A DNA stretch of 64,000 nucleotides. It comes from Narthecium ossifragum (lineage: Eukaryota; Streptophyta; Magnoliopsida; Dioscoreales; Nartheciaceae). Location: contig OY986969.1 in the NCBI GenBank assembly GCA_963920575.1, positions 14,896,615 through 14,960,614 on the forward strand, in the 5' to 3' direction. Under the pieces are notes generated by a model that made no database searches, was not told where the DNA came from, and saw only the letters and a list, made by a program, of their open reading frames with translations. Shown piece after piece: positions 1,742 through 39,682 of the stretch (the stretch's first letter is position 1; each line of letters starts with the position of its first letter). Made by a program: the position numbers and the translations under genes.

Positions 1742-4700
1742 CTTCAGAAGCTGCTGAATAAACTGAGATACATCCTTGCCCCCGATCGGAATAGATTTGA
1801 TACTACTGCCAATCACATAACCATCCACGACAGGAACCACATGTGTACCTCCGTCTCCAACATCAACTACAACACCTGTCATTTCACACTGAGAGAATAT
1901 ATTGATCAACCAAGCAGAAAATAAGATATGATACAATATCACCATATGAAGCCAAAAAAATCAGAAGAAATTAACAGGCTACAGGCAGACTAATAAATAC
2001 TTTAGAAAATTTAGAAAGACCATCTAAATCTGCTGCAAATAGATAAGTACCAAAATCCCAATGCCACAGCTGAAATGAAGCGACATATATAAGTGAACTG
2101 TACTAACGGACCTTGGAAGTGGTATATCCAGCAGCAAGGGCAAGAACAGGCTGAACTGCTATATAGAGTCCAGGCACATTAAATGTCTCAAACATAATTT
2201 CTCCAGTGTATTCACGTTTTTCAGGAGCAGTTAGTGGGCTCTCAGTAAGAAGGAAATAGTGATCTTCCGGGTCACAACGCAAGTAATTAAAAATACACTG
2301 TTGCCAAAATCTTTCCATAGCATCCCAATTGTCTACCTGTAAAAGTGGAATGTGATGTATAACTTTCTTAATAATCACACAAGCGTGAATTCCATGAGAT
2401 GGACATCTTACCTGACCATGATTAATAGGATAACTCAGATTGTATGTGCTGCTAGAGCGAGACCTCGACAAAGCCTCCTCTCCAATGAAAAAGTCAAGAT
2501 CAGCCATCACACCCGCACTGTGTTGTGCTAACCAATTTCCCTTACTAGAACTTCTAGACTGGTTTAGAAAAGATTCATTGACAGCCACGACAGTGGGGAT
2601 GATGAAGCAAGGCTCAACATTACCAGCAAATCCCATTTTGGTATACCTGAATCAAAGAAATCACCAGATTGCTTCAACACAATGCCAGCACGAAAATCCC
2701 CATATTATTAACCACTAAATATCCCAATATGCAGGCTCTTGTAAGGAGAACATGAGATGTGACTTCAGGTCTTCCTCTTAAAATAAACAGCAGAGCATAT
2801 ACTCACAAGGAGTTGTATTGTGCAAGAACTACAGATACTAAGACAAAGAAACGACATGCCTATTCCTAAGATGCAGTCTCACCAATTACAAATATCAACC
2901 AATTTCCAGCATGTTAATGCTAAAAAGCAGCCTGTTAGCTGGTGACATGGTCTGTCCTCAAGAATGTTCTCATACGCACCCAAAATCAATGGTAATTAAG
3001 AGTGAAATCAATACTAAAAGCTCATACAGAGCAGTCAATATTCCTTTTTCTAACTATGAAGTGCCTCCATAAACGCTCAACCAATTTGGCTAATGTCAGA
3101 TCATAACTCCCGCACATTCAAGCAGTACCAACAGATATCATCAAAAATCTAGTCAAAACAAAAACATAAGACCAAAACTTTGATTCCACAGAACAAATCT
3201 ATCCCGTCAAAAAAATCTCTCGACATCCAGCACTGAAATCCACAAGCTGGCCAATGAAGTTAGAGGTCTATCTGAAAACTTTAGAACAAAATTAATCTTC
3301 GAGAAGAATGCACAATCAATATGAATACTCACCAAACAGGAAAGGAACATAATTACAGCAATTAAGGAATTCAAGCTACATGTGATGTGAAAGCATGCGA
3401 TGGTTCAAAAGCACAATGAAACGAATGAATCGAGCAACACAGTCCAACTTATATGGCATTGATCCTAGCACTTGACGTGTTATTTAAGTCCAAGCTCTAC
3501 GGTTGAATCGATATACTGCCAACAATGTGCTTTCTTTCAGCAGAAAATTAAGTATCCAAAGCAGTTCCCAATATCACTTATCGCAAAGGTTTATTGACTT
3601 GATCTGGTGATTTTACAAAGCACCTTACATGGAATGATGCTGAATTGAAATGTATTGGGTGTGAGACTTGGCATTTATGCCATATAAATAGGGATTTGAT
3701 TTTTGCTCCAAAATTTAAGCCAGTCATTTGACCTCCAGTAGAATATAAACTAAGAGCCGCTAGAGTGCTAGTGGTAACATGAACCATGGGGGTGTAAAAT
3801 CTTAAGGGTACAAGTCAAAACTGACTTCTTACAACAAAAATGATGACCTCATGTAGAGCAACCAAATACATGAACATCAAACATAGGCATTATAGAGCAG
3901 AAGGTAGAACAGCAACCCAAACTCTACTAAAACATTAGATTAGTAACTATGATTTTAATGTCTTCCCCTCAAATGTGCCCTGTTTTTCAGAGTAGCCTCA
4001 TGCTTATAATCGTTTTCAGCCCATTAATCCAAAAAGATTTTCATTCTGCAAACTATTTATCTGAAGATTTTGAGAGTTATAAAACATCTATCCATCACAT
4101 ATCCTTGTTATCTCCTTCCATCTTAGCTAGGATGGAAAATGGATCAGATCACCATTAGACCACACCAAATTCAACCAACTAGAATGTAGAGTAGACGTCT
4201 CTCTTGAAGCCTTGGTGAATATTAGGACCAATTAATTTTCATTTATCAGAGGGGAGCTTAAACCATAATAAAATATTAAATGTTACTGATCAGATCTAGA
4301 TAGAGAAAATTGAACTCAACACATTTCTCAAGAGAATAAAGGCGTGAGAGCAAAAGCCAATGAGACAAAAACAATCATATACTATTCATACTCGGCCCTA
4401 ACATTTTCTCCCAGATTTTCATCTTTTCCGGCCATGAAGTTTGAATATCTTTGAAGATAAAATCATTTCTAGGCTTAAAGTAGAGCCCCTCCACCAACTG
4501 TATCTGGTAAACAAATTACTACAGAATTCAACTTCGATAAATGGTTGATCAGTTGAATAATCACCATCTGGAATGAATTTGAGTTTTGCTTAGGCTGTAG
4601 CTTGGCTGTGAGGAGACGTGTTTTGAATTAAATCACTATTTATTGTCATAAATGTAGAAGTCTAGCACTCCAATTCAATTCGCATCATTTTCATGTTACA

Positions 4701-5404
4701 TGCGTTGTAAAATCACCAGATCAACTCAAAACACATTTGCAATAAGTGATATCGGGGAGCTGGTGGAAGTCAAAGTTGCACCCCAAGATTACTGGACTTG
4801 TGAACTTTTCTCCAATGGAATTAATGACTAGAAACTAAGAAATTTCGTCTATCGTGATTGCAATTTCAGTCAAGATTGAGGCCCTTATTCTCTACTTTTA
4901 ATTTGCATCTCCATACATAAGAAACTAAACATGTATTTGTTGCATCAAAAGCAATATTCTGAATTGTCCATTTCTTTACATTTCCCATTTCAATTTCGAT
5001 ACCAAGCACCTTTACTTGTTTATTTCATCCGACCACAAGAGCAGCACCTACGGGCACATCATGCACTTCAATGATACTGCACACTTCTGTGTGTACTGGC
5101 TGAAACCAGTATCCTCAACTGACAACACAAGCACCTACCAAAACATCTCAAGACCACAATTTCAATAGGCCCACTAGAAATCCACTATTTAGAATGCTAC
5201 TTACGACTCCTCAAGCCACAAAAGCACATGAGCCAAAACAAAATCAGACGCGATTTTTAAAATTCTTTAGAGTCACCCAGAACAAGATCTAACCAAATTC
5301 CCAATTAATTAGCTAAAACTGTCAAAAACAAGCCACACCGAGATAGAGATCTACCCGGTCCCGTTGTCGATGACGACGGCGGGGCGAGATGCCGCAGCGT
5401 CCAT
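1742..5404 (-). CDS. ARP3: Actin-related protein 3 (ARP3), exons 1-4 of a longer gene
   Basis: ARP3 is a core subunit of the ARP2/3 complex, which nucleates branched actin filaments. Exons on the minus strand: 5404-5355 (ATG; encodes a start like [17 protein letters not shown]), 2646-2412 ([37 protein letters not shown]), 2336-2112 ([42 protein letters not shown]) and 1888-1742 ([35 protein letters not shown]). All junctions are GT-AG and the phases agree: 50, 235, 225 and 147 nt give 219 codons of the roughly 425 usual for ARP3. The first intron is 2.7 kb. The actin nucleotide-binding segments DNGTG and VDVGDG are intact and no stop is seen. The C-terminal exons are absent: intron 4 runs left into a retrotransposon at the window edge. 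They may continue beyond it or be lost. Confidence 0.93.
3562..4762. repeat. Long imperfect inverted repeat inside ARP3 intron 1
   Basis: About 140 bp at 3562-3706 match the reverse complement of about 4634-4762. The shared core is GATCTGGTGATTTTACAA, and the flanks CAATATCACTTAT and ATAAATAG also agree. Identity looks like 75-80 percent by eye, with a spacer of about 930 bp. It could be two MITE copies in opposite orientation or one larger foldback element. The rest of the intron shows nothing else recognisable. Confidence 0.6.
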
Positions 5405-5800
5405 CAGCGAACAAGCGGGGTCGAAGAGCAAAAGGCACTACGGATCCGCCGGCGAGATCCGAGATGACGAGGAGATGGTGGCTAGGGCATGGGGACATGG
5501 TACCGAGGAGATCTAAAGGGGAAGAAGGCGCGCGTGGACAGGAAGCGACAGCGGCGGCGCAGCGGTTGGAGGATCCCAATCATTGTCGGCGGATGGTGAT
5601 GCGGATGCGAGAGCGAGGGCCCCCCACCATCCTCACGGCGCTCGCTGATGCTCCGCACGGAGACGGGCGACAGGGACACCGGAACTATAGCAGATCCCGA
5701 GACCTCCTTGCCTTAAATTTTGCTACTGCCGCCGATGGGCGATAGTCTCATTGTTTCCGGTTTTTTCGCGTCTCTCTTGCGAGAATATAATATGAGCATT
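5405..5800 (-). promoter_or_regulatory. ARP3 5' leader and core promoter region
   Basis: This GC-rich stretch lies upstream of the ARP3 ATG on the minus strand. Read on that strand, a TATA-like sequence (CATATTATATTC) lies around 5783-5794. The transposon begins only some 40 bp further upstream, so the original distal promoter has been displaced. The assignment is by position and composition. Confidence 0.45.
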
Positions 5801-5832
5801 TGTTTGAGCGGAGTAAAATCTACGGGGAGGGT

Positions 5833-5872
5833 CCAGAGCCCCACATGCAAAAGACGGTTTGACTAAAAACCC
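5833..5872 (+). repeat. Left terminal inverted repeat of the MULE (diverged)
   Basis: It matches the reverse complement of 16511-16547 with roughly three quarters identity and small gaps: CCnnAnCCCCA, AAAAGnCnGTTTGA and TAAAAACCC occur in the same order. The GC-rich leader of the protease gene follows directly, mirroring the layout at the other end. Confidence 0.5.
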
Positions 5873-5929
5873 TTGCGCACTGTTTTGGGATAAAAAATCC
5901 AAACCACGCTTTCAAAGACACCTTTTCTC

Positions 5930-6369
5930 GCCTCCGCCTCTACCATCTCCCTGACTCCGGCGATCTCATCCCATCTGCAAGCTCCACCAACCATCTCGGG
6001 CGGCCTCATCCCACCTCCAAACACCACCATCGATCTCTACCCCATCGGAGGCCACCACCAGCCAGAGAGGCGACAGAGCAAAGGAAGGTATATGCGACAC
6101 CGACGAGAACCCCCTTGCTCCGCCTGGTACCCATCCTAAGCACCGTCGCCTTCCTCGGCGCCTCTGTGGTCCCCAACCTCCGCCTCGTATATACCCATCT
6201 GCGACAAAGGTTTCCCCCATTACTGGCGGAAGACCTCATCACCGACCGTGACGAACGAAAAATAAGGGTTTCACTGCCTCTGCCGACCCCGATTAACTTC
6301 TTATTCCCCAATCAAACGAAACCCTAACGAAGGGTTTCGCCGCCGCCGCTGAATCCAAGAACAGCAACG
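5930..6369 (+). promoter_or_regulatory. 5' leader region of the ULP1-like gene
   Basis: C-rich, leader-like sequence lies between the left terminal repeat and the first ATG of the protease gene. Short open frames here look incidental. The exact transcription start is not evident. Confidence 0.4.
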
Positions 6370-9300
6370 ATGGGGAGGAGGCCAAATCCAAAAACAACTG
6401 CGATAAACCCTAGACAAAAGGTAAGATATCATTTCGATTTTACATATTTCAATTGTATTTTGGATTAATTGGTGATATACCATTGTGATTCAATTGCATT
6501 TAGGGATTTATACCATTGCTATGTCATTTTTATCAATGATAAAAATGCTTGAGTGATGATCTCATTTTTATCATTGATGTGGGTTGAGATGATGTGTATT
6601 ACAACCTGAATCGATTTCATTGTTTCAGCAATTGAAATCATACTTACGGGATTATGATATAAAAACAGCAATGATTCTCATTTTTATCACTGATAAAAAT
6701 CATTCTTATTTTTATCAATGATAAAAATGGAACTTGATGATGTCGATTAAGATGATCACTTGATTTCGAAGATGTAATTTTTATCAATGATAAAAATGAG
6801 AATCAATGGTCATTCGCATTTTTATCAATGATAAAAATGAAACCTGTTGATGTGGATTGAGATGATGTTGATCATTCTCATTTTTATCAAGATATAAATG
6901 AGAATGATTGTTCATTCTTTCAAGTATTGTCATTTTTATCAGTGATAAAAATGAGAATCAATGTTCACTCTCATTTTTATCAGTGATAAAAATGAGAATC
7001 AATGTTCACTCTCATTTTTATCATTGACAAAAATGAAACCTGATGATGTGGATTGAGATGATGTTGTCATTTTTATCAATGATAAAAATGAGACTCAATG
7101 GTGACACTCATTTTTATCATTGATAAAAATGAAACCTGATGATGTTGTCATTTTTATCATTGATAAAAATGAAACCTGATGATGTTGTCATTTTTATCAA
7201 TGATAAAAATGAGAATGATTGGTCGTATTGTCATTTTTATCATTGATAAAAATGAAACCTGATGATGTTGTCATTTTTATCAATGATAAAAATGAAACCT
7301 AATGATGTTGATCATTCTCATTTTTATCATTGATAAAAATGAAATCAATGACTGCAGTTATTCTCATTTTTATCATCGTTATGTCTTTTTTTATCATTCT
7401 GATTCGTGTGTAAGATTTGAATATCTTTTTTTATCATTCTTATCGTTCTGATTGATGCCTTATTACAAAAAGCACAGAAAGTGGACAATTACCGGTCAAT
7501 TCTGGTTACAATTGTTTCAGCAATTGAAGATGTTCATCATCTAATAAAGCCTGCCCACTTGAAATACATGAAGAAAACACCATTCTTTACACTTTTCAAT
7601 GCAATCTATAAGAAGAAGATCTCAAGATCAGTTTGCACAAAGCATGATGAAGACATTGCAAGAATGCTTTCTCATTATAATTCCCAAACTGAATCATTCA
7701 GGATTGGAGGGCAGAATTGTACAATATCGAAGAATGATGTTCGTGTTATTTTTGGGCTGATAGAAGGGAAAAGGGTGATGAATCTAGCTAAGGGACCGAA
7801 GAAGATATCATCAGCCTTCATGGATAGAGTGTTCCCCGGCAAGAACCAGATTCAAATGAATAAATTGAGGGATAAGTTAGAAGAGCTGTTTAAAGGTACA
7901 ATAAAATTACAGCAAGAAGACAGCGTGAGAGTTTGTGGCCTCATTCTCCTCGGCTCCCTCTTCTTCCCTATTTCTGGACCACAGTTGGCATGGGGCTATG
8001 TGGAATTTGTTGAAAATCTGGATTCAATGAAGTCATATGACTGGAGTGCTTTTATTTTGAACACCTTGAAGAAATCACTGAATAAGAGTACTCGCAGTAA
8101 TACAAAGGCCACTGGTGGCTGCACTGCCCTAATCCTGGTATGAAATTAATTGATACAATTATGTTGCTTTTATACTAAGATGTACAAATGGATATTAATT
8201 TAGTCAGCTTCTTCATATATGTTTTTGTAGTACTGGTTTTGTGAGCTCACATACTTGATTGCACCAATAAGTAATGAAGACATCATGCCAAGGTGTATCA
8301 AGTGGGACATCTATAATTTCAAGAAATGTATCATTCCAGATGATATCAAATTAGTACAGGTGAGGTAGTGGATTTCTGTATTGTTTACATTTTTATCATT
8401 TATCTTTCCAACTGATTTATACTAATTTACAAAACAATCTTTATAGGCCAACAAGGAAAATTTAAAGTTAACGACAAAAGAGCGACAAACATATATGAAT
8501 CAATCGGAGCATAATGAAGTGGAAGGAGAAGAATGCGAAGAACAAGAGGAAGAATCTGAAGAAAATAAAGATGGTGACGATGAGGGTAATGATGATGATC
8601 AAGTGGGATTTAGTTCAGATGATGAAAATGAAGACGAATCTGATGAAGATGGATCTGACGATGAGGGTAAAGCTGCGGCCAAAGATGCATCAGGTTCTAA
8701 TGCATCAGAGGCAGAATCTGTAGAACATGATCATGGTGATGATGAAGGTGATGATGATGAGAAAGCAGAATTTGCCTCACATTCATTATATCATGATTTG
8801 GTTCATGAAAAAGGAGAGGAAATTACTGGAAATAGAAATGAAGACAAAGAAGATGAGCATATCTCAGATTCATATAAATCAGATGATATCGCGGCCATCA
8901 TGTTGGATATTAAACAACAATATCCACAAGAAGTAGATGTAAGTAGAATTGTTACATTTTTTTATCATTCATACTGTCATTTTAATAGTGTGTTTTGACT
9001 TAAAGATATATATTGGTTTATAATTCATTTTCATCATTCCATTTTTATAAATGATAAAAATATGGAACATGGGTATCCATTGATTGTTAAAATTGTCATT
9101 TTTATCATTCTCAGAATGATAAAAATGAAACGTGGGTATCAACTCATTTTCATCATTCCCATTTTTATCATTCTGAGAATGATAGAAATGGAACCTGGGT
9201 ATCAATTCATTGTCATAATTGTCATTTTTATCATTCTGAGAATGATAAAAATGAATTTCAGTATCCATTCATTCTCATAATTGTCATTTTTATCATTCTC

Positions 9301-12192
9301 AGAATGATAAAAATGAACGCGGGTATCAATTCTGTCATAATTGTCATTTTTATCATTCTCAGAATGATAAAAATGAACATCGGTATCCATTCATTCTTAT
9401 AATTGTCATTTTTATCATTCTGAGAATGATAAAAATGGTGAAAATGAACCTGACTTTCAAATTAAATTAGAACTTCTTTATGATTGAAACTATTAATTTG
9501 GAAATATAATTTGACTTCAGAAATGTGTCCTGGTTTATAATCATTGAATTAAAACTTGATTGTAGGATGAGCAGCTTGAAGTTGACGTGGAATTTGATGC
9601 TGTGTCAAATATGGAGCATCATGCTGGAAATGTGAGTATCATATTTATCATTCCTATCCAATTACATGGCTTTGGCATCTATTTATCATTTGAAACTTAA
9701 AATTTAGGTTGAAATTCATACAACTTTGGAGGAAAAAGGATTTGATGTTAACAAACAGCCTGATGGCCTTCATGACACCAACAAAAATGTAAGTGTCCCT
9801 TAATTTTAGCAATATATTTAATTTTATGTTTTGTCTGTTAAATGCACAAGTGTGTCCCTGTAGGATGATAACATAGAGATACAGCCTGATGTTGGCATCA
9901 TAGATGATTTGAAGGCAGAAATTGATAAACTGAAAAAAGATGTTATTGCTGGTAATGCTGAAATAGTTGGATTGAATGAGAAGATTGATGTGATTGAATG
10001 CGAAAGGGTGGAGCTGAGCATTGAGTTCAAGAAAAAGGATGAGTACCTTGATCAGCTGACAGTGGAAAATAAAGAGCTGAAGAATGAGATAAATAAAGGA
10101 AAAAATGTAGAACAAGATAGAGGTGAATTGGAAAGATTGCACATGCATATCCAAACTCTGACAATGGATATAGAATCTGCAAATGCAAAGATTGAAGCAA
10201 TGAAGCTGAGGATTGAAGGGCTGCAAAGGATAAAATGCAGCTAGAGATAAAGAAAAAGGACACAGAGGAAATGATGGAGGCATATAAAAATGCACAACTT
10301 ATCCCTTCTGAGTGCAAAGATCTCATGAAAGAGAATGAAAGGTTGCAAAAAGAGCTGCAAGAAAAGATTGCAAAGCTCGATGAACAGCAGTCATTTATCA
10401 ATAGTTTAAAAGAAGAAATAAGTTCCATGAAACAACAGCATATAGAAACCCTTGAAGATGCTGCAGGAAACTTTTCTCTAGATATGGAATTGATGAAGAA
10501 GGAACTAGAAGCTGAAAATGAAGCATTAAGGAAGGATCTAGAAAGTGTCAAAGCTCCAGGGCCAAATTCAATGATTAAGGGTATAAAAGGTAAGAAGAAG
10601 ATAAGAAAAAGAAGAGATGACTTCCAATACAGCACAAAGAAGAAACCGAGACTGAGAAGGTTTGCGGAAGACCTCAAGAAGTTAAAAAGGAAAAACTTAT
10701 GTAAAGGGGGAAAACACTTAAGTGATGAAGCATACCAGAAAATAGAAGCAATACTTGCAGAATCTGGCTCAAGGTAATAAGACATGCTGTTTTGTCAAGA
10801 TTCTGATTGTTGGTGTCACAATTTTTAGTCACTAACATTTCTAATACTATGCAGTGGCACAGTGTGGAGGAGCAAGCAAGATACAAACAGTATGGTAACT
10901 GCAGAATGCATAGTGCAAATATTGAATGGGGAGTACATGTCAAGCATTGTAAGTCAGTCTTACAAATATCTGAATGATAAAAATTGTTAAAATAACCTTT
11001 TTGTGTCTAGAGTGATGTAGTTGTTCAGAACAATAATAGTGCTTAAGTGATTCAATCTCATTTTTATCAATGATAAAAATGGAACCTCATGATGTTGATC
11101 ATTCTCATTTTTATCAATGATAAAAATGAAACCTAATGCTGTGGATTGAGATTATATTGATCATTCTCATTTTTGTCATTTTTATCATTGATAAAAATGG
11201 AATAAATGGCTGGTATGATAATCATTTTTATCAATGATAAAAATGGAAAAGACTTACTATAAAAATGGAAATATCCAGATTGTTGGTCTGACAATTATTG
11301 TGTTTGCAGGTCATTGATGCTTATTCAAAGATATCAAGTGCTGATAAGCACATTAGTGACAGTTGTTGGTTTATGGATAGCACCTCCTGGGTACGTAGAT
11401 ATTTCATGTGAACTTGAGCACTACTAACATCTGTAATGAGGATAACTAATTCAATGTACATGCCTCTGCAGACACTCATAGTGCAGCATAAAAATAAGGA
11501 TTACATTAGGCAAGTATGCTGCAAATTTTCTGAAGCTACTCGCCAAGAGCCGCAACTCAATGCACGGGTTTTCTTCCCTATATGCTCAAATGGACGCAAC
11601 CAAGACAGATTACCCTATCATTATACTCTGCTAGTTTTTCACACTGAAGAAGAAAAGTGGTACTTCTACAACTCAATGAAAGAAAGAGAAGAACGTGACG
11701 ATCCTTTCTTTGAAGATGCAAAAGAACTGGTTAGTAAAACACTTAGCACCTAAATTTGTGAATTCCAAATAAGACAAGTATGCAGCCTGGAACTAATGGA
11801 CATCAAATATGTTTCTAATGCAGAAAAACTGCATTGAACAAGCATCAAAACTAGTAAATATGCCGGAAGTTACCACACAAGACACAATACTACAAATTGT
11901 GAATGTCAGCGACATAGCCCAACAAGGATTTGATACGTAAGTACTTATCAGACTGTAGCTTGACAGATTTCATCTTTCATTCCTCAAGCATTTCTGAATG
12001 TTAAACATTAAACACCACTTTAGTCTAACTTTGGTTTTCAAAAAAAAACTGAACAGGACTGATTGTGGAATCTTTGTCTGCTACTATATGGAGCAGCTGG
12101 TACTATCTCAACAAATACCATCAAAGCTCAAACCAGCAGAAGTAAACAAGTTCAGGGCAAAGTTGGTTGAGAAGATTGTACTTGATGAATGA
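6370..12192 (+). CDS. ULP1-like (C48) cysteine protease gene of the MULE, 12 exons, one frameshift
   Basis: Exons: 6370-6420, 7478-8137, 8231-8359, 8447-8938, 9566-9631, 9708-9788, 9864-10773, 10855-10948, 11310-11390, 11472-11729, 11824-11936, 12057-12192. All introns are GT-AG and 9 of 11 are phase 0; the product would be about 1023 residues. Order: N-terminal domain typical of transposon ULP proteins (FRIGGQNCTISKNDVRVIFG; YWFCELTYLIAP, PRCIKWDIYNF), a Glu/Asp-rich acidic stretch (exon 4), a long coiled coil (exon 7), a basic NLS-like stretch (KKKIRKRRDD, KKKPRLRR), then the C48 domain. Its His lies in HYTLLV, its Cys in DCGIFVCYY, and a Gln that could form the oxyanion hole in AQQGFD. The usual Asp position reads Asn (FYNSM). 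ULP1 proteases cleave SUMO or similar modifiers; the role in MULEs is unsettled. One base is missing near 10226, which breaks the coil frame (GLQRIK then stop, resuming MQLEIKKKD). This is a mutation or an assembly error. Confidence 0.85.
6465..6481 (+). repeat. 17-bp perfect inverted match to the right end of the MULE
   Basis: TTAATTGGTGATATACC here is the exact reverse complement of 16570-16586. Flanks are also similar (ATTTTGGA versus ATTTTAGGG). It lies in intron 1 of the protease gene, about 600 bp inside the inferred left end. Confidence 0.7.
6525..7376. repeat. Palindrome array, version A, in intron 1 of the ULP gene
   Basis: About 16 copies of a near-perfect palindrome: arm CATTTTTATCA, one central A or T, arm TGATAAAAATG. 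Late copies recur every 40 bp or so with semi-conserved spacers such as GAAACCTGATGATGTTGT. A few copies are degenerate. The array fills most of the 1057-bp intron. Confidence 0.93.
9031..9437. repeat. Palindrome array, version B, in intron 4 of the ULP gene
   Basis: Seven copies, six with a longer arm CATTTTTATCATTCT, a central C or G, then the complementary arm. The period is almost exactly 60 bp, and spacers contain GGTATC and CATAATTGT, so this is a minisatellite whose unit contains the palindrome. It occupies the 627-bp intron between exons 4 and 5. Confidence 0.93.
11059..11245. repeat. Palindrome array, version A, in intron 8 of the ULP gene
   Basis: Four version-A palindromes, at 11059-11081, near 11105 and 11180, and at 11223-11245. 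Spacers resemble those of intron 1 (GATCATTCTC, GGAACCTCATGATGTT). Confidence 0.9.
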
Positions 12193-12807
12193 AGCAAATC
12201 TGCTGTACAATGTTAGATTAGATTGAATCACAAAGTTACAATTACATTAATTTTGAAGATTGTACTCTATTAAAGATGCATAGTTGTTGTACAGTATACA
12301 TTGATTTTGAAGTTGTAAACAAAAAGTTACAGATGTATTAGATTGTACTCCATTCAATATGTGTTTTCAATCAGTTTAATATGGCAATGATGTTTGGTTA
12401 TGATGTTCAATTGAATGGAATTGTCAGGTATAAACTTGATATCCTGTGATATCATATAATATCCTGTGATGGTTGATTCTCATTTTTATCAATGATAAAA
12501 ATGAACAGGGATCTGAAATCCAGTTAATAAGTGATGTAATAATGCAGGTAAGATCAAATTCTGTCAGATGCACATCATGTATGATCGTGATATCATGTAA
12601 TAAGACTAGAGAGATAAAATTGAGGCAACTGGACATAAGAAGATTAAATCTTGTATAGAATGAGAAAAGATGAATTTTGAATGTCAACAACTGACTCCAT
12701 CAAAATCAAAATATAGGCAACAAATGCCACTTACATTTCCAACGAACACAAAGAATGATCTACTATAACAATCATTTAGTTTCAATTCACAAATTCAATG
12801 AAGCCAT
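12193..12807. other. Spacer between the convergent ULP and transposase genes
   Basis: AT-rich sequence that must contain the 3' ends of both transcripts. It holds one isolated version-A palindrome at 12481-12503. No further gene is visible. Confidence 0.7.
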
Positions 12808-13440
12808 CTAAGGTAGTGGTTCTTTACAAGTTTTCCTATTATGATTTCCGTGGCGACCACACCGCCCACACCTGATGGTTTTAACAGCCTCACCCTTTGA
12901 TCTAATCCTCTTCTTCCTTGGCCGGCCTGGAGGCCTCTTGGATATTGGAGGTAAAATAGCTACATCTTCGGACAAATGGTCATGCTTGTAGATAGTTGGA
13001 ATTGGATAGATTGGAAATGAATAGGACTGTGCATATGTGGATTTGTGGAAATAGTTTTCCACGTAAGAGTTCAAGTCACCTCGAATCTTCATGATACATG
13101 CTATGGCATGGGAGCATGGGAGCCCATCTAACTGCCATTTTCTACAAGAACATAAGCGATTTTCTAAATCAACTGAAACAGAGGGAATTGAATCAACCTC
13201 GAACAATGTACTAGTGGAATTCTTAACGAACCACGTCCTTGCTTCATCAAAAGCAATAGATATCTTCCGGTCAATATCCGGACATAAGACCGAATTCCAA
13301 CGATCGCAGGCAACACTCCGATCTGCATGTACATACACATTGTCATTACGTAGCAATTAAACAAGTAACACAATAGAAAGGTGAAAATAAATCTAATAAT
13401 CAAGAATGTTTAAAATGAGAATGACTGCAGTTATTCATTT

Positions 13441-13710
13441 CATTTTTTGTCATTGATAACAATGGGAATGACAAAAATGCTCATTTTTATCATTCTCGGA
13501 ATGATAAAAATGAGAATGATGAAAACAAATTCATAGCCATGCTCATTTTTATCATTCTCAGATGAAAATGAATTGAAACACATGTTCATTTTTATCATTC
13601 TGAGAATGATAAAAATGAGAATAGTCTTTCATTCCATTTTTATCATTCTCGGAATGATAAAAATGAGAATCAAAAGGTCATGCATTGCATTTTTATCATT
13701 AATAAAAATG
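13441..13710. repeat. Palindrome array, mostly version B, in the second transposase intron
   Basis: About five palindromes, beginning at 13482, 13541, 13588, 13636 and 13688. Most have the long arm with centre CTCGG, CTCAG or CTGAG; the last is the short type. Spacers are less regular than in the other B arrays. Confidence 0.88.
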
Positions 13711-14451
13711 AATTCATGGATACATAATTGCATACAATATGCGTAATTACTTTCGAATTATCTCTTATCCACTGTATGTACCTGACAATTGTTACATGAT
13801 TTTGCTCCTTATCAAATCCACTATACTAGTGATAGGAAGGTGCCTTTCATTCTTAATCCATGAATTGAAGGATTCTGCAGCACTGGAGGACATCTCACCA
13901 TATCTATTTCCCAAGAAATAGGCATTTGCCCAACACTCCTTTGGTAGATTTTGCAAGAAGCTCCCAGCAATATGTCCACCCTCCACAAAGAATTCCTGAA
14001 TCTTTGAATGATAAAGATCGACCGTAGGAGCATAGGCACATTCAGCCAACTTGAATGACATATGATTCTTGAATGTACCATTGCAGCGTTTACGGCTGAA
14101 AGCATCCTTCAAATTTAGTTTCAAATGATAAAGACAATAAGCATGATGATGTCCTTGAAAAACAATAGGCAAAGCCTTTAGAAGACCAGGATTCCTATCC
14201 GAAACAAATGTCATAATCCGCTCTGGCTGTAGAATTGCTTTCAGACACTCCAAAAACCAGAACCAATTTTCTTCATTCTCAGAGTCGACAATAGCAAATG
14301 CAAGTGGATAGAGACCTTCAAAATTACATCCGATTAGGAAAGATGAAATTAAGTCAGATGCAATCACGTATGGTTGTGATAACATGTAAGTAATCCTTTG
14401 TATGAAACATAAAAATGAACATCAGTTTTATTTGGAATTGAAACACCTATT

Positions 14452-14668
14452 CATTTTTATCATTCTCAGAATGATAAAAATGGACCGTGGGTATCCATTT
14501 GTTGTCATAATTGTCATTTTTATCATTCTCAGAATGATAAAAATGAACATGGATTTCAATTCATTGTCATAATTGTCATTTTTATCATTCTGAGAATGAT
14601 AAAATGAACATGGGTATCAATTCATTGTCATAATTGTCATTTTTATCAGTCTCAGAATGATAAAAATG
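14452..14668. repeat. Palindrome array, version B, in the first transposase intron
   Basis: Four copies at about 62-bp spacing, with spacers containing GGTATC and CATAATTGT. The unit and its orientation on the plus strand match the array at 9031-9437, although the host gene runs the other way. Confidence 0.92.
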
Positions 14669-15908
14669 GTGAAAATGAGCATGAGTTTCAAATCAAATTA
14701 GAACTTGTTTATCATATATGATTGTGAATGTGATGTCATGTAATAATCCTACAAGAGAAAGATAAAAATGAACATGGGTTTCAAATCAATTTAAAACATG
14801 ATTTGCTGTAATAATGCATAATCATAAGAGATAAAAATGAAGTCTTGAGTTAACATATGCAAGTACTAAAATGAAAACCATTTTATTACCTTTGTTGCCA
14901 TCCTTGCCAGTTGCAGCCAGCAACTGTCCTTTGAATTTTGTCTTCAAATGTGTGCCATCAAGGAATAGCAGCGGCCTACAGTAATTAAACCCGTCGATGC
15001 ATGCTGTAAAAGATATAAACAGTCTTCTAAAGCGGTGAGAAACTTCATGAACATCAAGGACAATATGAGAACCAGGATTCGCATCACTAGCAGCTTGAGC
15101 ATACCAAAGTAAGTCTCCAATTGATCCATCATGGTCCATAGTCAGTAACAAACTGTTGGACAACATCTACAGGACGCGTCGTTGCATCAGTACGCACTTG
15201 GTTTCGAACTAAACTTGCAACCAAATTAGAGCTCATTCGCTTATGCCTCCACACACGACAAGCTGCTCCACATGTATGTATATTCTGAAATTTTCTCACA
15301 TAAAAAAAGCCATTGATAGGCTCATGAGTGGCATGAATCATCCAAGAACAACCAGTGTTGTCCTTATTCGGACACTGTGCCGTGACTCGAGTAGGTTCAT
15401 TCTTCAGAAATTTATAATCATAGCCTGACTCAATCGATAACTTCTGCAACGCTAGTCTAAACTCAGCCACACCACCTTCAAACATCTGCCCTACTACAGT
15501 GATAGCTTCTTTCCACCCAACAGTCATTAAAGTCTTCTTTTCATGATGACAGAAATTAGAGAGCAGTTCACACTCATTGAAATCAGAGAAATTATCATTA
15601 GTCACACAAGATCCAACACCTGTTGTACTGACAATCAAGCTACCACTATTGTCTACAACATCGACAACAATACGTTCAATACCCAATGAAACTGCTACCA
15701 ATGTCATACTCTTGAAATCTGAATTTGAAGCAAGAAGGCATCTAGGATGCTCAGGTATTGAGTAGTACATTTGAATTTTGTCCTTTGATAAATTGGTCCA
15801 GGTCCCACAAATATGTCTAACAATTGCATCAAAAGAACATCCACTTTCTACTACGAAAATGCTCGTCTCACCATCATACTTGCATAGTAACAATATCTTG
15901 CACCTCAT

Positions 15909-16500
15909 TGATAACCCTGTCGAACCACATGTCAATTAAGAATGAATAAGACACCGTGAATTCCAACGGAAATACAAAAATCAATTTGTAGATACACAAT
16001 TGCATAACATGTGATGTATGAAACTGCAATAATAAAATTGAATCGAATAATCATGAATGATTATGATGTTATGTAACACATAAGAAAGATGTGTAATCAC
16101 TGCCTCCTCGCCATCCTTTTTCAGGACGAAGCACGAGTTCCCATTCCAACTAGCTTGGGATTTTAGAGAGAGGGGTTAGGGTTGGAATGGGATCGACCAA
16201 TTTATTCCAACTAGCTCAGGATTTTAGAGAGAGGGGTTACAATTAGGATGGGATCGATAGGGAGTGAACGAGGAGGGATAGAAGTGGGAACCTTGAAGCC
16301 GATAGAGCAAAAGCGGAACGGGTCACCGAGGGACGGGAGGAGATCTCGCAGGCAGGGGGTAGAGGCGAGCTTGGAGGGGGCTGCGCCGCCACGGGGCTGA
16401 GGCCGGTCGTTGAGAAAGGGCACTCGCGGACTATTGAAGGTATACGTGTGCACCCTCGTGCAGAATATGTTAGCTAAACAACAACAACAACTAATTAAAC
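15909..16500 (-). promoter_or_regulatory. 5' leader and promoter region of the MULE transposase
   Basis: Sequence upstream of the transposase ATG on the minus strand. The GC-rich part at 16240-16450 is probably leader, and a likely splice acceptor (TTCGACAG) sits just upstream of the coding start, implying a 5' UTR intron. Two near copies of the phrase TTTTAGAGAGAGGGGTTA occur at about 16160 and 16212. Confidence 0.45.
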
Positions 16501-16510
16501 CACATTAGAT

Positions 16511-16586
16511 GGGTTTTTTATCAAACAGACTTTTAATGGGGTTTTGGGATGAGAAAGGTCTCTAATATGGGTATATCACCAATTAA
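16511..16586 (-). repeat. Right terminal inverted repeat of the MULE
   Basis: Read inward on the minus strand it contains TTAATTGGTGATATACC (exact match to 6465-6481), then CCCCATTAAAAGTC and GTTTGATAAAAAACCC, which parallel the left terminal repeat at 5833-5872. Confidence 0.55.
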
Positions 16587-16604
16587 CCCTAAAATCTATT
16601 AGAT

Positions 16605-17561
16605 TTCATGAGTTATAATCTCATTTTATATTTATATTTTAGAAAGGATAAGAAAGGAGAATATGTGACAGCTGAGTCAAAAAAAAAAAAAAAAAAAACT
16701 GTAAGAGTGGTTAGTGATATACAGTTAGGTAATTAGACGAGGACTCATTGGTTTGAGATTTTTATTTCCATGAAAAAAAGGGTTATTGTTATATTATCCC
16801 TTAAATCTTCCATAATTCACACAAGTATTTAGAACCCTGATAACATAAAAAATAGCCTGTGGGAGCAAAAGCTTTGATTTGTTTTATGTTATCGAGGGCT
16901 TTTTCGTCATTTGTGGTCGGACGGGACTTGAGTTTCGAAATCAGAGATTATTTTCATATTATCAGAATTATAAAGATTAATATGAAATTAAAAAAAATGA
17001 AGAGATTAATATGAAATTAACCAAGATAAAAATTGTTTTTTTTGCAACCGCCTCTTAAGGCTTGGAGTGCGGAAACATGTCTTATTGGCATTTACATTTT
17101 GCCCCATGTCTAATCTTTGTTTACAAAAAGCCTCCGATTGTTATAATTCTTTCAATTAATCCTATGTATTTTAACTCACTTGAGGAATAATGACCAAATT
17201 TAACCTTGATCAGACTATTTTTTTATTAATTAAATTTGGATTCGATATGAAAGTGAGATTACAACATGAGCTTATTGTCTTCAATTTTTTTATATTTATT
17301 CTAATCCATTCAAGAAATACTGACTGAACTACCATTCAGTTATCAATTCATACTTAATTGCCGATTAATATATTTTAAATCGAATCATACTCAATAAAAT
17401 AAAAATTGCAATAGAAATGTGTATTATAGTGTTTTTCTAACACAATGTTCTACAAATATTCTATTGTTGGCCGGAGAATTATCCCTATAGGGTTTTTTCG
17501 ATGAAAACCAATCACGAGGGTTTAGAACACAAATAAGGCATGGGGTTATCACAATCTTCTA
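16605..17561. other. AT-rich intergenic sequence
   Basis: No coding potential or repeat structure was recognised, apart from a run of about 22 A at 16679-16700. Confidence 0.6.
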
Positions 17562-19260: not shown

Positions 19261-21680
19261 TGTCACACCCCGACCCAGAAAATCCATCCAGGACGAGGCA
19301 TGAGAGTTCCTATCTCTATTCATCTTCAATCGGCGCGATACAAATGCGGAAAGACGGATAAATTTAAACAAATTATAATCCAGAGGTAAACAGGTATTCA
19401 ATTTATATAACATTAGTTGTACTATTCAATATTTGATACAAATATCTTCCAATGATAGATATAATACATAATCCCAAAAGTCCTCGAAATGTTTACAACA
19501 TGTATATTATCAAAAAGGTACAACAGTTTTATCCTCCAGCAAAACCTCAAGCGCCTCTGGATGTACTCGCACCGCCAAAGGCCAATCTCGCCGGCTCCAC
19601 AGACGAAGAACTGCCGCCTGCACCTGCAAACGCAGCCCGGGTAGGAGTGAGCGATAAGCTCAGTAGGGTTCTACTCTACGACACACAGAAGGGAGGAAAA
19701 TAACAACAATGTTGTCTCCCAGCTCAAGTCTAAGGAATACCACGGGGTTCCACGACCCCTGCCGACTACCCCAAGGATCCTACTCTTCTCAACCGACCAC
19801 GCTGGGATACATCAACCAAACACGCTGGGAGGAAACAGAGAACCAGAACCAGTAGGATCACCCTTACCCAGCAGTAAGCCACTGCCCGGGGACCATGTCA
19901 GAGGCACCGACAACCATCCTTAGCCCTTGGCCTTGGGAGACCAACACGACTTCTAAACCTCAAACATTGATCAAAGCCAGCTATCGCAAAATCCTCAACA
20001 ACAAGAGATTCGATGATACAAGATCACACCCTACTCCTGACTACCCAGCCATGGTTCGAAGGCTAGATCGGAGCTACCTGAGAGCCTCGGATCGGCGACC
20101 CAAACCATCGCCCGTCTAACCTCAAATGCCTCTAATGCACACAATGCATGAGCCTAGGCAAACATCTATCCTAGATGTCTCTACATGCCACAGCATCAGT
20201 TACAAGTTCAACAGATATACAATAGCCCTCGGCACTCGCCGGCAAGAGGCTAAGGTTCCACAAGCCCACATTAGCTAGCACTCATAGCTAGCTAACGGCT
20301 AAGCAAACAATTAAGCAATTAAATACTAACCACACATGCATTTAAAAGCAAGCCACATCATCAATTTACTCAAAGGAAATCAACATGCGATTCAATCCTT
20401 AATCTCAATGAAAATCCCTTGAAAACTTCATGAAAACCTCATACCAATCTCTCAACATGTTTAGCTATCAAACCCAAGTGAAAGCCATCCAAGAAAAACC
20501 AGAAAACACTGCTCAAGGGCCCACGGTCGATGCGACGGTCGATCCAACGGTCGACCGTGGGACCAAAACGAGGAAAACCATCGGGGCGACGGTCAATCGG
20601 TCCATCGACCGTGGGGAGCCCAAAACGGGACAGAGCCTCACGGACGATGCGGCGCTCGATCCGCTGCGGCGGTCGATCCGCCGGTCGACCGTGAGGCGGG
20701 AAGAAAAAAGGTGGAAGCCCGCGGTCGATTGATCCATCGACCGTGGGAGACCAAAATCCCGACAGAGCCTGACGGACGATGCGACGGTCGATCCGCCGGT
20801 CGACCGTCAGGCCCAGAAAGCGCTTTTTAATACTTGACGGTCGATGCACCGATCGACCATCGAGCCTTAGTCACAGTTCATCAGAACAGTGCCGGAAATC
20901 CAATTCTTTGGATTTCAAGGATCAAATCAAGTTTGAAGTTGATGAATTTTTGCAAGCAAGTGTAATTAACGATGGGGAAAACATTGGAATGAAGAGATCC
21001 CATTTTTGATGGTTAAATCTCCTATCTAGGTCAAAACGGGTGAAAACCGACAAAACGACGATAATACAGAAACCAACCGTTGAAATACTGAAAACGCGTG
21101 ATATAAATACTTCAAATCATTCACATTACAAGCACAATGAGCTACATAGCATTCTAACAAGTACTCCTATAGCGAAAAGGCAATAAACCTATCCTAGGAG
21201 AACCCGATCCTAAGATCGTGGTAGAAACACCTACTTGAGCAAGTAGGGCAGCTCCTCCACGCGTCTAACCAGTCGAGCCGCCAAGATCCGCGCTCCGAAA
21301 GCCGAGTCTCCAAGCCCTAGCTCAGCCGAAGGAGAGAAGGAGAGAAAACGACAGTAGAAGAGAAGGAACGAGAGAGAAAGGGACATGGCTTATATAGAGA
21401 CCCGGACCGATCTCAGCCGTCCGATTCGATCTTTCCCGATCGAGCTCCGATCTTCCGATCGGACGCACCCTAGAGATTCTAATCAAGCACATACATCAAT
21501 CCAAGGCCGTATGTGAAACGCGGGTGTGAAACCGACCACCAGAGGGCATATTTACCAAAATGCCCCCGGGGTCCAAATCGCCATACGATCGCCCGATTGT
21601 ACCCGATGCGGAACCAAATCAACAGGAAACCGGCTCTCGACCCACGCAGTCGAGCCAGGTCGGAGGGACGGGCCCTCACA
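19261..21680 (-). mobile_element. Solo LTR (2420 bp) of the TGTGAGGACC family, target duplication GAGCC
   Basis: Plus-strand ends are TGTCACACCCCGACC and GGCCCTCACA. The flanking 5-mers GAGCC (19256-19260 and 21681-21685) are identical, and the gag reading frame rejoins across them. Read on the minus strand it starts TGTGAGGGCC, has a TATATAAG box near 21389 and a CT-rich leader, so the sense strand is minus. The large size and CACACCCCGACC ends recall Del/Tekay-type chromovirus LTRs; that family name is inference. Confidence 0.9.
20515..20870. repeat. GGTCGATC palindrome array in the solo LTR
   Basis: Tandem variants of ACGGTCGATnnnnCGGTCGACCGT interleaved with the phrases CAGAGCCTGACGGACGATG and CAGGCCCAGAAAG. 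High GC and strongly self-complementary. The same phrases recur in the copia LTRs at 50732 and 53591. Confidence 0.9.
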
Positions 21681-22662: not shown

Positions 22663-25067
22663 TGTCACACCCCGACCCAGAAAACCCATCCGAGTCGAGG
22701 CGTGAGGGGAAACCTACACTATTCATCTCTAAGTGGCGCGATACAAAGCGGAATTATATAAAAACTTAAACAATTTATAATCCAGAGGTAAACAGAAATT
22801 CAATTCATATAACATCAGTTGTACTATTCAACATTTGATACAAATCTTCTAATGAAAGAATATTCTACAATAATCTCAAAAGCCCTCGAAATGTACATAA
22901 TTTACAAAATCTGCCAAAAGTACAACAGTCATCCTCCAGCAACCTCAAACACCTCTGGATGTAGTCGCGCCACCAAAGCTGATCCGCCGGCTCTACTGAA
23001 GAAGAACTGGCGCCTGCACCTGCAAACGCAGCCCGGGTAGGAGTGAGCGATAAGCTCAGTAGGGTTCTACTCTACGGCACACTGAAGGGAGGAAAACAAC
23101 AACAGTGTTGTCTCCCCGCACAAGTCTAAGGAATGCCATGGGGTTCCACAACCCCTGTCGACTACCCCAAGGATCCTACTCTTCTCAACCGACCACGCTG
23201 GGACACATTCTCCAAACACGCTGGGAGGAAACAGAGAACCAGAACCAGTAGGATCACCCTTACCCAGCAGGAAGCCACTACCTGGGGACCATGTCAGGGG
23301 CACCGGCAACCATCCTTAGCACTTGGCCTTGGGAGACCAACACGACCTCTAAACCTCAAACACTGATCAGAGTCAACTAGCGTGAATCCTCAAAAGACAT
23401 GAGACTTGATCAACAATCACACCCTACTCCTGACTACCCATCCACGATCCTAAGGCGAAATCCGAGCTACCCGAGAGCCTCGGATTGGCGACCCAAACCA
23501 TCGCCCGCCTAACCTCAAATTCCTCTAATGCATACAATGCATGGGCCTAGGCAAACATCTATCCTAGATGTCTCTACATGTCACATCATCAGTTATAAGT
23601 TCCATAGATATACAATAGCCCTCGGCACTCGCCGGCAAGAGGCTAAGGTTCCACAATTTCTCATTCGCTAGCACTCAAAGCTAGCTAATGGTTAAGCAAT
23701 CAACTAAACACTTAACTACAATCAAACATGTATTAAATGCAAGTGAAACCATAGATTTGTCCAAAAAGGAAACTTACTCTAATCAATCCTCAAACCCGAT
23801 GGAAATCCTTTGAAAACCTCATGAAATCCACATACACACATCCCAACAAGATTAGATACTACTCACAACTCAAAACCATCCAAGAAAGACCAGAAAAATC
23901 AAGTTCAAAGGGTCACGGACGATGTCACGGTCGATCCGGCGATCGACCGTGAGACCAAAGTGAAGAAGACCAAGGGCGACGGTCGATCCACCCATTGACC
24001 CTGAGAAGCCCAAAACCAAACAGCGCCTGACGGTCGATGCGACGATCGATCCGACGGTCGACCGTCAGGTAAATGGCGAAAAGGAGAGGACCCCACGGTC
24101 GATCGATCCATCGACTGTGGGAGTCCGAAATCCCGACAGAGCCCGACGATCGATGCGACGGTCGATCTGACGGTCGACTGCCAGGCCCAGAAAGTGTAAA
24201 ACAACACTTGACGGTCGATGCACCGATCGACCGTCGAGCCTTGGCACAGTTCATCAGAACAGTGCCGAAAATCCATTTCTCTGGATTTCAAGGATCAAAT
24301 CAAGTTGAAATAAGATGAAATTTCGCAAGCAAGCGTATTTAACAATGGGGAAGCCAATGGAATGAAGAAATCTAGTTTTTTACGGTTAAATCTCCTATAT
24401 AGGTCCAAATGGACAAAAACTGACAAAACGGCGATAATACGGAAACCAACCGTGAGAATACTGAAATCTCAACGTAGGAATGCCGGAATTGAACAACATC
24501 ACATATACAAGGAGCTACAAAGCATTCTAACATGTATTCCTACAGCGAAAGCACATGAAACCTATCTTAGGAGAACCCGATCCAAGGATCGAGGTAGAAA
24601 CACCTACCTGAAGAGATAGGGCAGCTCCTCCACGCATCCCCCAACTCCGATCGCCGGAAATCGCTCCTCGAAAGCCATTCCTCCAAAGCCCTAGCACCGT
24701 CGGTTGGAGAGAGAGGAAGAGAGAATGACTGGAGAAGAAGAAGGAAAGAAAGAGAGAGACGAGAAGGGGTTTAAATAGAAAGTTGGAAACGATCCCAGCC
24801 GTCCAATTCGATCTCTCCCGATCGAGCTCCGATCTTCCGATCGAAGGCGCCCTAAGGGTTCTAATCAAACACATACATCAATCAAAGCCCATGTGTGCAA
24901 CGCGGGTGTGAAGCTGACCACCAGGAAGCATATTTACCAAAATGCCACTGGGGTCAAAAATAGCGATGCGATCAACCGATCGCATCCCAAGGCCAACCGA
25001 GCCAAACCACAAACCCAGACCCTCGACTTAACGCGGTCGGACCAGGTTGGAGGTACGGGTCCTCACA
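22663..25067 (-). mobile_element. Second solo LTR (2405 bp) of the TGTGAGGACC family
   Basis: Same family and orientation as 19261-21680, with ends TGTCACACCCCGACC and GGGTCCTCACA. Flanking 5-mers are ATGCA (22658-22662) and ATGTA (25068-25072), a target duplication with one mismatch. Short open frames inside are shadows of the GC-rich array. Confidence 0.88.
23913..24240. repeat. GGTCGATC palindrome array in the second solo LTR
   Basis: Same unit types as 20515-20870, at the equivalent position. Confidence 0.88.
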
Positions 25068-37921: not shown

Positions 37922-39682
37922 TGATAGCTTGAGAACGTGTCATTAAATCCGATGCAAACTCAATCAAAAATAAAATTTATAAACCCTTATTCAAAATACT
38001 AAACTATGGGATAGAATAGGGAGGAAATACGGGATCGAACCATAGGGAAAACTTTGATTACGAAGGAGAAACCAGAATTAAATCTCGAAACTCTAAACCT
38101 AAAGCGAAAATGATTGATTTGGGATTTTAGAAACTGATTAATTAAAACTAGTTAAGAAAGCAATGTAAAAAGATTGAAATATATTAATAAGAGAAAACCT
38201 AGGGATTACTCAATCCACTTTAGTTTCAATTCCTGTATTCTCTAATTATCCTCTTGTTTTCTTATCTAGATATTATAGATTCATAGTTTCTTAAGCTTAC
38301 ATGAATCCCTAAAATAAGGTGAGTGTTTTTCAAAGGCATAATTTATCTTCGATTAGCATAGATTGTCTTCGGGGTAACCTTAGCACAACATATCATCACT
38401 AAGTATAAAACATCTCATCGGTTATTCACAAACCACATAAAAACCATCTTATAGATCTCTACTATCAATCACCGAAATCAAGTAGGTCTAAAAATACGTC
38501 AAGGAACTCTGTTCCCTCAACTCTTTTATCATTAAAACATATCTATAAGATCATGTCCAGAAAAAGAACACAAGTATCAAACTAGAAAATACAAAGAAGA
38601 TCTACTAGGGTGTTTGGTTGCTTGTATTAGCTGATGCATGCATGAGCTAATGCAGACCAGTGTTTGGTTGGCCACTGCAATAACTGATGCATGCATTAAC
38701 TAATACAAAAGGTTGTTTGGTTGGCCACTGCATTAACTGATGCATGCATCAGTTAATGCAAAAAGGGCCTCAAATGCTGCATTAGCAAAAACAGTCATTT
38801 TGGCCGTTTTTGCTAATGTAGCATTGCATTAGCAGATGCAATGCAATGCATTGCTTTAATAGATGCAATGCACTGTATTGAGCAATGCACTGCATTAGCT
38901 AATGCAAGCAACCAAACGCCCCCTAAAGCTTCATGAGATCCCTAAGTATAGAAATTAGCCACTCATCTTTGTGATGGAAGCCATAGATTCGATGAAGAAC
39001 GATTGGGATTCACGCCGCGACTCTATCTTCTCCAGAAAATCTTCCAAACCCTAATTCTCTCTTTTCTCTATGGGGACTTCCAATTTTGGGCCAGCAAACA
39101 CCTTCTTATAGGTGTATTCTCGGAATTAGGGTTATGGCTAAATTGGACTCCTACTACAACTCGGATTCCTTGGATTAATTCCTGGCTGTCCTATTCTGGT
39201 CGCAACTGGATCCAATCAAGCCAGATTTTTGAAATGTGCTCAACATGAAAGATGTAGATTAGGAAGTCGTCTGTCCTATCCCAAAGATTTGACATTATTT
39301 TGACTTATGTGGATTAGTTGGCGAATATTCTCCTGAACGTCGACGGACCAGTTTCCCAGCATCTGTTTATCTTCATAGCCTTTAAAACTGGTATTAATTT
39401 GTCAGGAATCTTGCAAAATGTCCAACATGAAAGTTGTTCGTCTTGATGTCTTCTAAAGGTCCTCCAAATTTAAGGAATTTAGAATTTAGCTAGAGAATTT
39501 GACGAATTCTTTTCAAACTGCCAACGGAGCGGCGTAATTTCCACATATTAGTCTGTTTCTGTATTTTCTAACTTGAATCTTCATTAAACCTGAAATCAAC
39601 TAACAAACTATCAAATATATACACTCTCGGGTTAACAAATGTAAATTAAGGGGTTTAAGTATGAATATTTAGTGACTGATCA
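37922..39682 (-). mobile_element. Solo LTR of the TGAT...CA family nested in the Athila-like LTR
   Basis: Plus-strand ends are TGATAGCTTGAG and GTGACTGATCA. It is homologous throughout to 47299-48602 (GCAAACTCAATCAAAAATAAAATTTATAA; AAACCTGAAATCAA). It carries a MITE at 38608-38922. No clear target duplication remains. Confidence 0.75.
38608..38922. mobile_element. Harbinger- or hAT-like MITE, about 315 bp
   Basis: Inverted ends GGGTGTTTGGTTGCTTG and CAAGCAACCAAACGCCCC, flanked by CTA on both sides (38605-38607 and 38923-38925), suggesting a 3-bp duplication as in PIF/Harbinger. Inside are two copies of GTTTGGTTGGCCACTGCA and many GATGCATGCAT and TGCATTAGC phrases. It has no ORF. Confidence 0.75.

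Follow-up and report, generated by a model that had tools for sequence, protein, structure and literature searches.

A MULE in the 64-kb window (the whole stretch of DNA analysed here) carries arrays of a short word in its introns and intergenic spacer and in none of its exons, mostly arranged as convergent dyads. The word is retained across the element's family, including gene-less copies, and three related MULEs in the same genome carry arrays of other words. On balance, these arrays are probably the targets of an element-encoded anti-silencing system of the VANC kind, with the protein of the element's Ulp1-domain (ULP) gene as the predicted binder.

The element, its genes and its arrays

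The MULE is of the non-TIR type, and its ends are common to nine sibling elements. It is flanked on both sides by the 9-bp target duplication TAAAATCTA, and its left and right ends are unlike each other and are not inverted repeats. A 9-bp target duplication was clear in 5 of the 8 elements displayed with a true left end, one in poly-T (siblings E4 and E6 are not included in this count); a clear one was not found in siblings E1 and E2. The main features are:

5823..16590 (about), + strand: whole MULE, ~10.77 kb
5889..5901, + strand: left subterminal box, GATAAAAAATCCA in the window copy and GATAAAAAACCCA in most siblings
6370..12192, + strand: ULP gene, 12 exons
6370-6420, 7478-8137, 8231-8359, 8447-8938, 9566-9631, 9708-9788, + strand: ULP exons 1-6
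9864-10773, 10855-10948, 11310-11390, 11472-11729, 11824-11936, 12057-12192, + strand: ULP exons 7-12
12808..15908, − strand: MURA-like transposase gene, 3 exons (15908-14890, 14315-13782, 13322-12808)
16510..16522, − strand: right subterminal box, GATAAAAAACCCA read inward (TGGGTTTTTTATC on the + strand), inverted relative to the left box

The ULP gene is given as a splice model in which all internal splice sites are GT..AG. From N- to C-terminus its protein consists of a PMD/DUF1985-like region, an acidic stretch, a coiled coil and a Ulp1 domain. In a sibling copy with an open frame, the Pfam match to Peptidase_C48 (Ulp1) scored 28.6 bits (cut-off 20.7); the PMD match, at 33.2 bits, fell just under its cut-off of 34.9, and the DUF1985 match that it overlaps (20.8 bits, E 3.9e-4) fell well under its cut-off of 35.1. 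The transposase has DBD_Tnp_Mut (47.6 bits, cut-off 25), MULE (42.4, cut-off 27.6) and SWIM (33.8, cut-off 19.6) domains, and near its end the sequence GRPRKKR, which we take to be an AT-hook-like motif. Both frames are broken in the window copy, and siblings with an open frame for the ULP gene or for the transposase gene exist. Sibling E9 (L028-L029) has an open transposase frame and ~3 kb of extra DNA within ULP exon 4. With ~7900-8000 candidates scored for each protein, one homologue was found for the ULP protein vs 129 for the transposase, a gap that may be due in part to poor annotation of many-exon genes.

The exact half-site CATTTTTATCA occurs 66 times in the window, 37 times forward and 29 times in reverse, and all 66 copies lie between 6525 and 14668, inside the MULE. 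Pairing of half-sites with at most one mismatch per arm gave 37 rows, or 34 distinct dyads after merging three alternative pairings. A 23-bp pattern allowing up to 3 mismatches had 22 matches, vs 0.01 expected from 100 dinucleotide shuffles; with this expectation and with genome controls of 0, a chance origin of the palindromes was rejected. None of the 66 half-sites is exonic, though 5139 of the element's 10767 bp are coding; this test applies to the window copy and uses the GT..AG splice model for the ULP gene and the limits of the transposase exons. The half-sites are distributed over five introns (29, 11, 8, 8 and 7), the intergenic spacer (2) and a short sixth intron (1), as follows:

6525..7375: array 1, ULP intron 1, 29 exact half-sites, short dyads
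8388..8398, + strand: lone exact half-site, ULP intron 3
9026..9437: array 2, ULP intron 4, 11 exact half-sites, 62-bp unit
11059..11245: array 3, ULP intron 8, 8 exact half-sites, short dyads
12481..12503: single dyad, intergenic spacer
13482..13710: array 4, transposase intron 2, 8 exact half-sites, long dyads and one short imperfect dyad
14452..14668: array 5, transposase intron 1, 7 exact half-sites, long dyads

The first array begins ~700 bp into the element and the last ends ~1.9 kb short of its right end. Spacing in array 1 is close to one half-site per 40 bp across 6926-7350. An initial annotation of the window had reported about 37 palindromes at up to this density, in five introns and the intergenic spacer, with none in exons and none noticed outside the element. 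The placement and the density were borne out, the lone half-site in the sixth intron being an addition; the figure of 37 is that of the forward half-sites, whereas the palindromes number 34.

The dyads of array 2 are mostly of the long form, CATTTTTATCATTC nnn GAATGATAAAAATG, and the 61-bp unit of array 5 is related to that of array 2. These two arrays have in common a duplicated stretch of ~266 bp, made up of array plus flank (9222-9484 vs 14451-14715; 84-90% alike in sibling comparisons). Found in a ULP intron and in an oppositely oriented transposase intron, it is, to judge from the sequence, a case of intron-to-intron copying within the element. Elsewhere in the window, an unrelated short unit with ACGGTCGAT or GACGGTCGATCC forms small tandem arrays at 20523-20554, 24029-24061, 50953-51013 and 53804-53873, and 38631-38907 is occupied by tandem repeats that contain the words GCATGCATC and AATGCAATGC and are self-complementary in part.

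The subterminal boxes bear on what might bind the half-sites. The ends of sibling E2 have a 13-mer in common, 66/67 bp in, and a length of 12 was reached by 5 of 5000 shuffle pairs. At both ends, 66 or 67 bp in, the box GATAAAAAACCCA has GATAAAAA in common with the half-site. In post hoc tests with one sibling's ends, 2 of 20000 shuffle pairs had GATAAAAA in both ends with matching orientation and distance, and 37 had it in both ends at any place. At the left end of L001, the box occurs in an inverted copy, which creates a larger palindrome.

Such boxes would fit either a terminal target of the ULP-gene protein or a transposase site. If the latter, the half-sites might be transposase-binding or transposition cis-sites that multiplied from the subterminal boxes and that aid synapsis, excision or transposase-driven hypomethylation. 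The AT-hook-like tail of the transposase would suit this role. Two reports offer precedents: Muta1, a MULE of Aedes, retains 12-bp subterminal repeats in gene-less copies (PMC5225508), and maize MURA lowers methylation at the terminal repeats of gene-less copies (PMC10398659). We nevertheless regard this origin as unlikely, as the arrays, found in introns of the ULP and transposase genes alike, are not subterminal and reach distances of several kb from the ends; a derivative without any half-site and relatives with different words, both described below, also speak against it.

Retention of the word in siblings and gene-less copies

Across the 379-Mb genome, exact matches to the short palindrome number 761, against 0 for its reversed control, and those to the long palindrome 81 (control 0). 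The initial annotation had considered the repeats confined to one MULE, which is wrong because the palindrome belongs to the whole MULE family, siblings and gene-less copies included. The refuting outcomes that the annotation had named, many copies in unrelated intergenic DNA or close relatives without arrays, were for the most part not seen: the palindrome goes with this family and not with unrelated DNA.

Nine further elements share both ends with the window MULE. They were picked among the long-palindrome matches listed (the first 100), and were thus chosen by their palindromes. The ten elements, which include three internal-deletion copies, hold 42 to 72 exact half-sites each, and 64 kb of their flanks contains none. 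Arrays were found at matching places in all six full-length siblings examined. Of the 260 convergent neighbour pairs (up to 70 bp), 167 have an offset of 11 bp between core starts, 91 one of 19 bp and 2 one of 62 bp, and 516 of the 627 core sites in the ten elements belong to convergent dyads.

Among six aligned elements, four of the five array introns are gap-rich (4-21% of pairs gapped), and in the fifth there are none. A comparison of six of the ten elements, which excluded the deletion copies E3, E4 and E6, the inserted E9 and intron 1, showed half-sites to be just slightly less variable than the rest of the non-coding positions (p 0.05-0.39 across six choices of reference). Constraint on the half-sites thus appears weak among these siblings, which are young copies. 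In E3 (L016-L017), an internal deletion fuses the ULP intron 4 array to a transposase intron array; this deletion makes the arrays look like points of recombination.

A right-end word of 21 bases is found 97 times in exact form in the genome and 138 times when up to 1 mismatch is allowed (control 0). In C1:0-9.4 Mb, all 10 palindrome clusters among the matches listed have a right end at a distance of 0.5-3 kb (exact in 8 cases, with 1 mismatch in one and with 3 in another), and a palindrome cluster is present at all 8 exact right ends. Ten further exact right ends, taken in even steps through the 97, all have 7-33 half-sites within 2.4 kb; two of these loci (L040, L045) are copies that retain portions of the full element. 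A search with an asymmetric palindrome yielded 160 matches, of which those listed form 64 clusters on C1-C6 (96 of 100 matches listed, four on C7 having been dropped). Thirty-six of the 64 are within 4 kb of a listed right end, vs 0.24% expected for each, where the right ends listed were 55 exact ones on C1-C6 and three with 1 mismatch. Within this group, 35 clusters are on the inner side and 34 have the same relative orientation. When 9 of the remaining 28 clusters were sampled, six had a right end at up to 2 mismatches, and in three the 2.4 kb examined did not contain a clear one: L052 has a partial right end, L054 a 4-mismatch candidate, and at L049 none was found.

No coding match to either gene was found in 23 gene-less pieces (2.4-3 kb each, not all of them whole elements). 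Outside the arrays, 16 of the 23 match the window element at E<=1e-20, solely at its ends; seven have no such match, and two of these (L043, L044) have the right-end word in exact form because they were selected for it. L031 consists of both ends, an array and a DUF674 fragment (E 1.3e-12), which is a captured host gene fragment; it provided the one Pfam match among four filler fragments scanned from L031 and L033, the other three having none. With a host fragment between MULE ends, L031 resembles Pack-MULEs; unlike them, it additionally keeps a dense array of the family word. Elements of ~0.7 kb with two right-type ends also exist, three by position (e.g. C7:22621158-22623471). One of these two-right-end elements, L034 (C1:27022150-27023050), has no half-sites and no array; it is an inverted-repeat derivative that lacks the array.

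In the gene-less loci the word is kept and its layout is looser: of 508 core sites, 206 belong to closely spaced convergent dyads, with the rest in tandem or farther apart (23 pieces; L034, L040, L045 and overlapping loci excluded). Core-start spacings cluster near 11, 19-20, 22-23, 31-35 and 41-46 bp, perhaps near multiples of the helical turn.

This layout is relevant to the idea that the arrays work through RNA hairpins or DNA cruciforms, for instance by giving rise to small RNAs. The predicted RNA fold of array 1 has an energy of −326.9 kcal/mol, where 20 shuffles averaged −198 (z −23.7), and VANC target regions overlap RdDM targets in Arabidopsis (PMC10398659). However, any palindrome folds, and fold energy alone therefore says little. 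Within 5800-16700 no Rfam family was found at gathering score, and the word of one related MULE, L057, runs almost entirely in one direction. The hairpin and cruciform options raised in the initial annotation fare less well because most gene-less core sites lie outside close dyads, and we consider such roles highly improbable.

The same loci speak to a further alternative, in which the arrays are neutral or selfish minisatellites that expand by slippage, hairpin-primed copying or gene conversion and ride along with the MULE. The tandem organisation, the gaps in four of five array introns, the ~266-bp duplication common to arrays 2 and 5 and the weak constraint among siblings are what such repeats would produce. 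Yet full and gene-less elements keep one and the same word despite their different spacers and layout, the array is kept at 10 of 10 sampled right ends although the filler DNA has been replaced, and three related MULEs have arrays of other words. We judge this explanation to be rather unlikely. In its narrowest form, minisatellite growth in one copy alone, it is rejected by the arrays of siblings and gene-less copies.

Related MULEs with other words

A search with one transposase exon, in which 150 of 1203 candidates were scored, gave 13 close copies and then relatives from ~77% identity down. Three relatives, L055, L056 and L057, have 68-70% identity in that exon, with transposase parts 49-71% alike. 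None of the three contains an exact half-site. All three carry arrays of other short words, two words in all, mainly in intergenic and intronic DNA. (The exons of the relatives were delimited from tblastn matches, and chance may account for some occurrences of the 7-base word described below.) Since three related MULEs have such arrays, array growth is recurrent in the clade. The expectation that related elements keep the arrays thus holds for the six full-length siblings, at matching places, and fails for these more distant relatives, which have other arrays instead. Because comparable non-coding places hold different words in elements whose transposases are this similar, the relatives also count against the half-sites being transposase sites.

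In L055 and L056 the word is CTCTTTT/AAAAGAG, found in the DNA that separates the ULP gene from the transposase gene and within or next to transposase introns, and L055 has an additional cluster upstream of its matched ULP exons. The transposase of L055 has 60-69% identity, and its ULP protein has 26-29% over two of three matched parts and 49% over 45 residues in the third. L056 (reverse complement) has a long insertion at ~3541-6854, with a 692-codon open frame, that splits the transposase gene. The word of L057, TTTTCTCTCA, lies beside the transposase gene and in its intron, in one direction in 47 of 48 copies; a ULP match was not found in L057. At 5749-8877 of L057 the word is part of 20-bp and 65-bp tandem units. 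The L057 16-mer GGGTTTTCTCTCAATG has 648 exact genome matches (control 5), which are clustered. Among the 100 matches listed, on C1-C3, 1 of 20 L057-word clusters starts within 10 kb of a listed transposase match, and the other 19 have no listed transposase match within that distance.

A proposed VANC-like anti-silencing system

The initial annotation knew of no description of intronic arrays such as these. Word arrays in MULE introns are nevertheless of a known kind, as several sources make clear. In VANDAL MULEs, VANC proteins bind short words that form tandem arrays in introns, in intergenic DNA and in non-coding DNA at the termini (Hosaka et al. 2017, PMC5735166); VANC21 binds YAGTATTAY and VANC6 other words, in non-coding tandem arrays (PMC5735166). 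They remove DNA methylation from their own family (PMC5735166, PMC10398659). Related VANDAL families have other words, and their arrays gain and lose units fast (PMC5735166). Ulp1-carrying VANC genes do likewise, according to a review (PMC13317346), and another review notes that TE-encoded PMD proteins have been proposed as counter-silencers (PMC8616336).

The Arabidopsis elements VANDAL21 and VANDAL6 resemble the window family in having a MuDR-type transposase with a second, fast-diverging gene (PMC5735166), degenerate ends (PMC6446971) and, in non-coding DNA, arrays of short words that differ between families and change quickly in repeat number (PMC5735166). Unlike them, the window family has mostly dyads, in which 11 or 19 bp separate the core starts, whereas the VANC21 motifs are described as arrayed in one orientation; its second protein has a Ulp1 domain with DUF1985 under the cut-off, and binding and hypomethylation are predicted here. 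The Ulp1-carrying non-TIR MULEs (Kaonashi/KIU; ULP-MULEs of melon, grape and rice) likewise combine a transposase, a Ulp1-domain gene and non-TIR ends, and motif recognition in the non-coding DNA of their own kind has been reported for them (PMC13317346); the palindromic word differs from these, none having been found in the available part of their description (PMC13317346). Among foldback-type MULEs (Muta1, Tm1), Muta1 is similar in having short repeats, variable in number and kept in gene-less copies (PMC5225508); its repeats belong to long terminal inverted repeats, unlike the internal arrays of the window family.

The anatomy of the element resembles that of VANC MULEs, and we therefore take the half-site, (C)ATTTTTATCA, mostly in convergent dyads, as the family-specific target word of the ULP-gene protein. 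This protein, with its PMD/DUF1985-like region, acidic stretch, coiled coil and Ulp1 domain, would bind the arrays across both genes, and binding would leave the element's DNA unmethylated and expressible. Because the protein is proposed to act in trans, gene-less copies with ends and array would be protected and mobilised as well. Arrays would grow and shrink through repeat gain and loss, and would be found in non-coding DNA because multiplication of the word there breaks no protein. Binding sites are thus the best of the roles first suggested for the repeats; the favoured binder would be the product of the second gene, and neither the transposase nor a host factor.

In favour of the VANC-like reading count the link between word and family, the retention of arrays in gene-less loci, the different words of the three relatives, the low identity of the L055 ULP protein next to that of its transposase, the single ULP homologue vs 129 for the transposase, the gap-rich array introns and the published VANC precedents. 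Several observations run against it. The DUF1985 and PMD matches fall under Pfam cut-offs, and the siblings have mostly dyads where VANC21 motifs run one way. Constraint on half-sites is slight, the fifth array intron is gapless, and the siblings are young and were picked by their palindromes. L034 lacks an array, and three of nine sampled clusters lack a clear right end. The GATAAAAA core in both ends is explained equally well by transposase binding. Two of the three relatives share one word, and confinement of words to their families is an assumption.

A broader version of the VANC-like proposal is offered tentatively, and we hold it with some doubt. The two non-matching ends and the dyad array might make up the whole cis kit, with the array serving as a pass word read by the PMD/DUF1985-like plus Ulp1 protein. 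Passengers would persist only with an array, and families would avoid cross-activation by having their own words, some of them palindromic and read by dimers.

Palindromic target arrays inside a MULE were not found in the literature searched, in so far as its text was available; Muta1 has a 10-bp palindromic terminal motif (PMC5225508). The palindromic word and dyad layout are apparently new, and so is an array that passengers with captured genes retain as nearly the sole interior feature they have in common. The occurrence of at least three words among related MULEs of a single genome also appears to be new.

If the proposal is true, sequence-specific anti-silencing reaches beyond the VANDALs of Arabidopsis to a MULE family whose target word is palindromic, and MULEs that have lost their own genes and captured others remain active by keeping that word. 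At least three words and diverged second genes in one genome would make the co-evolution of protein and word directly testable, and the words would be short candidates for directing the loss of DNA methylation to chosen sites in plants.
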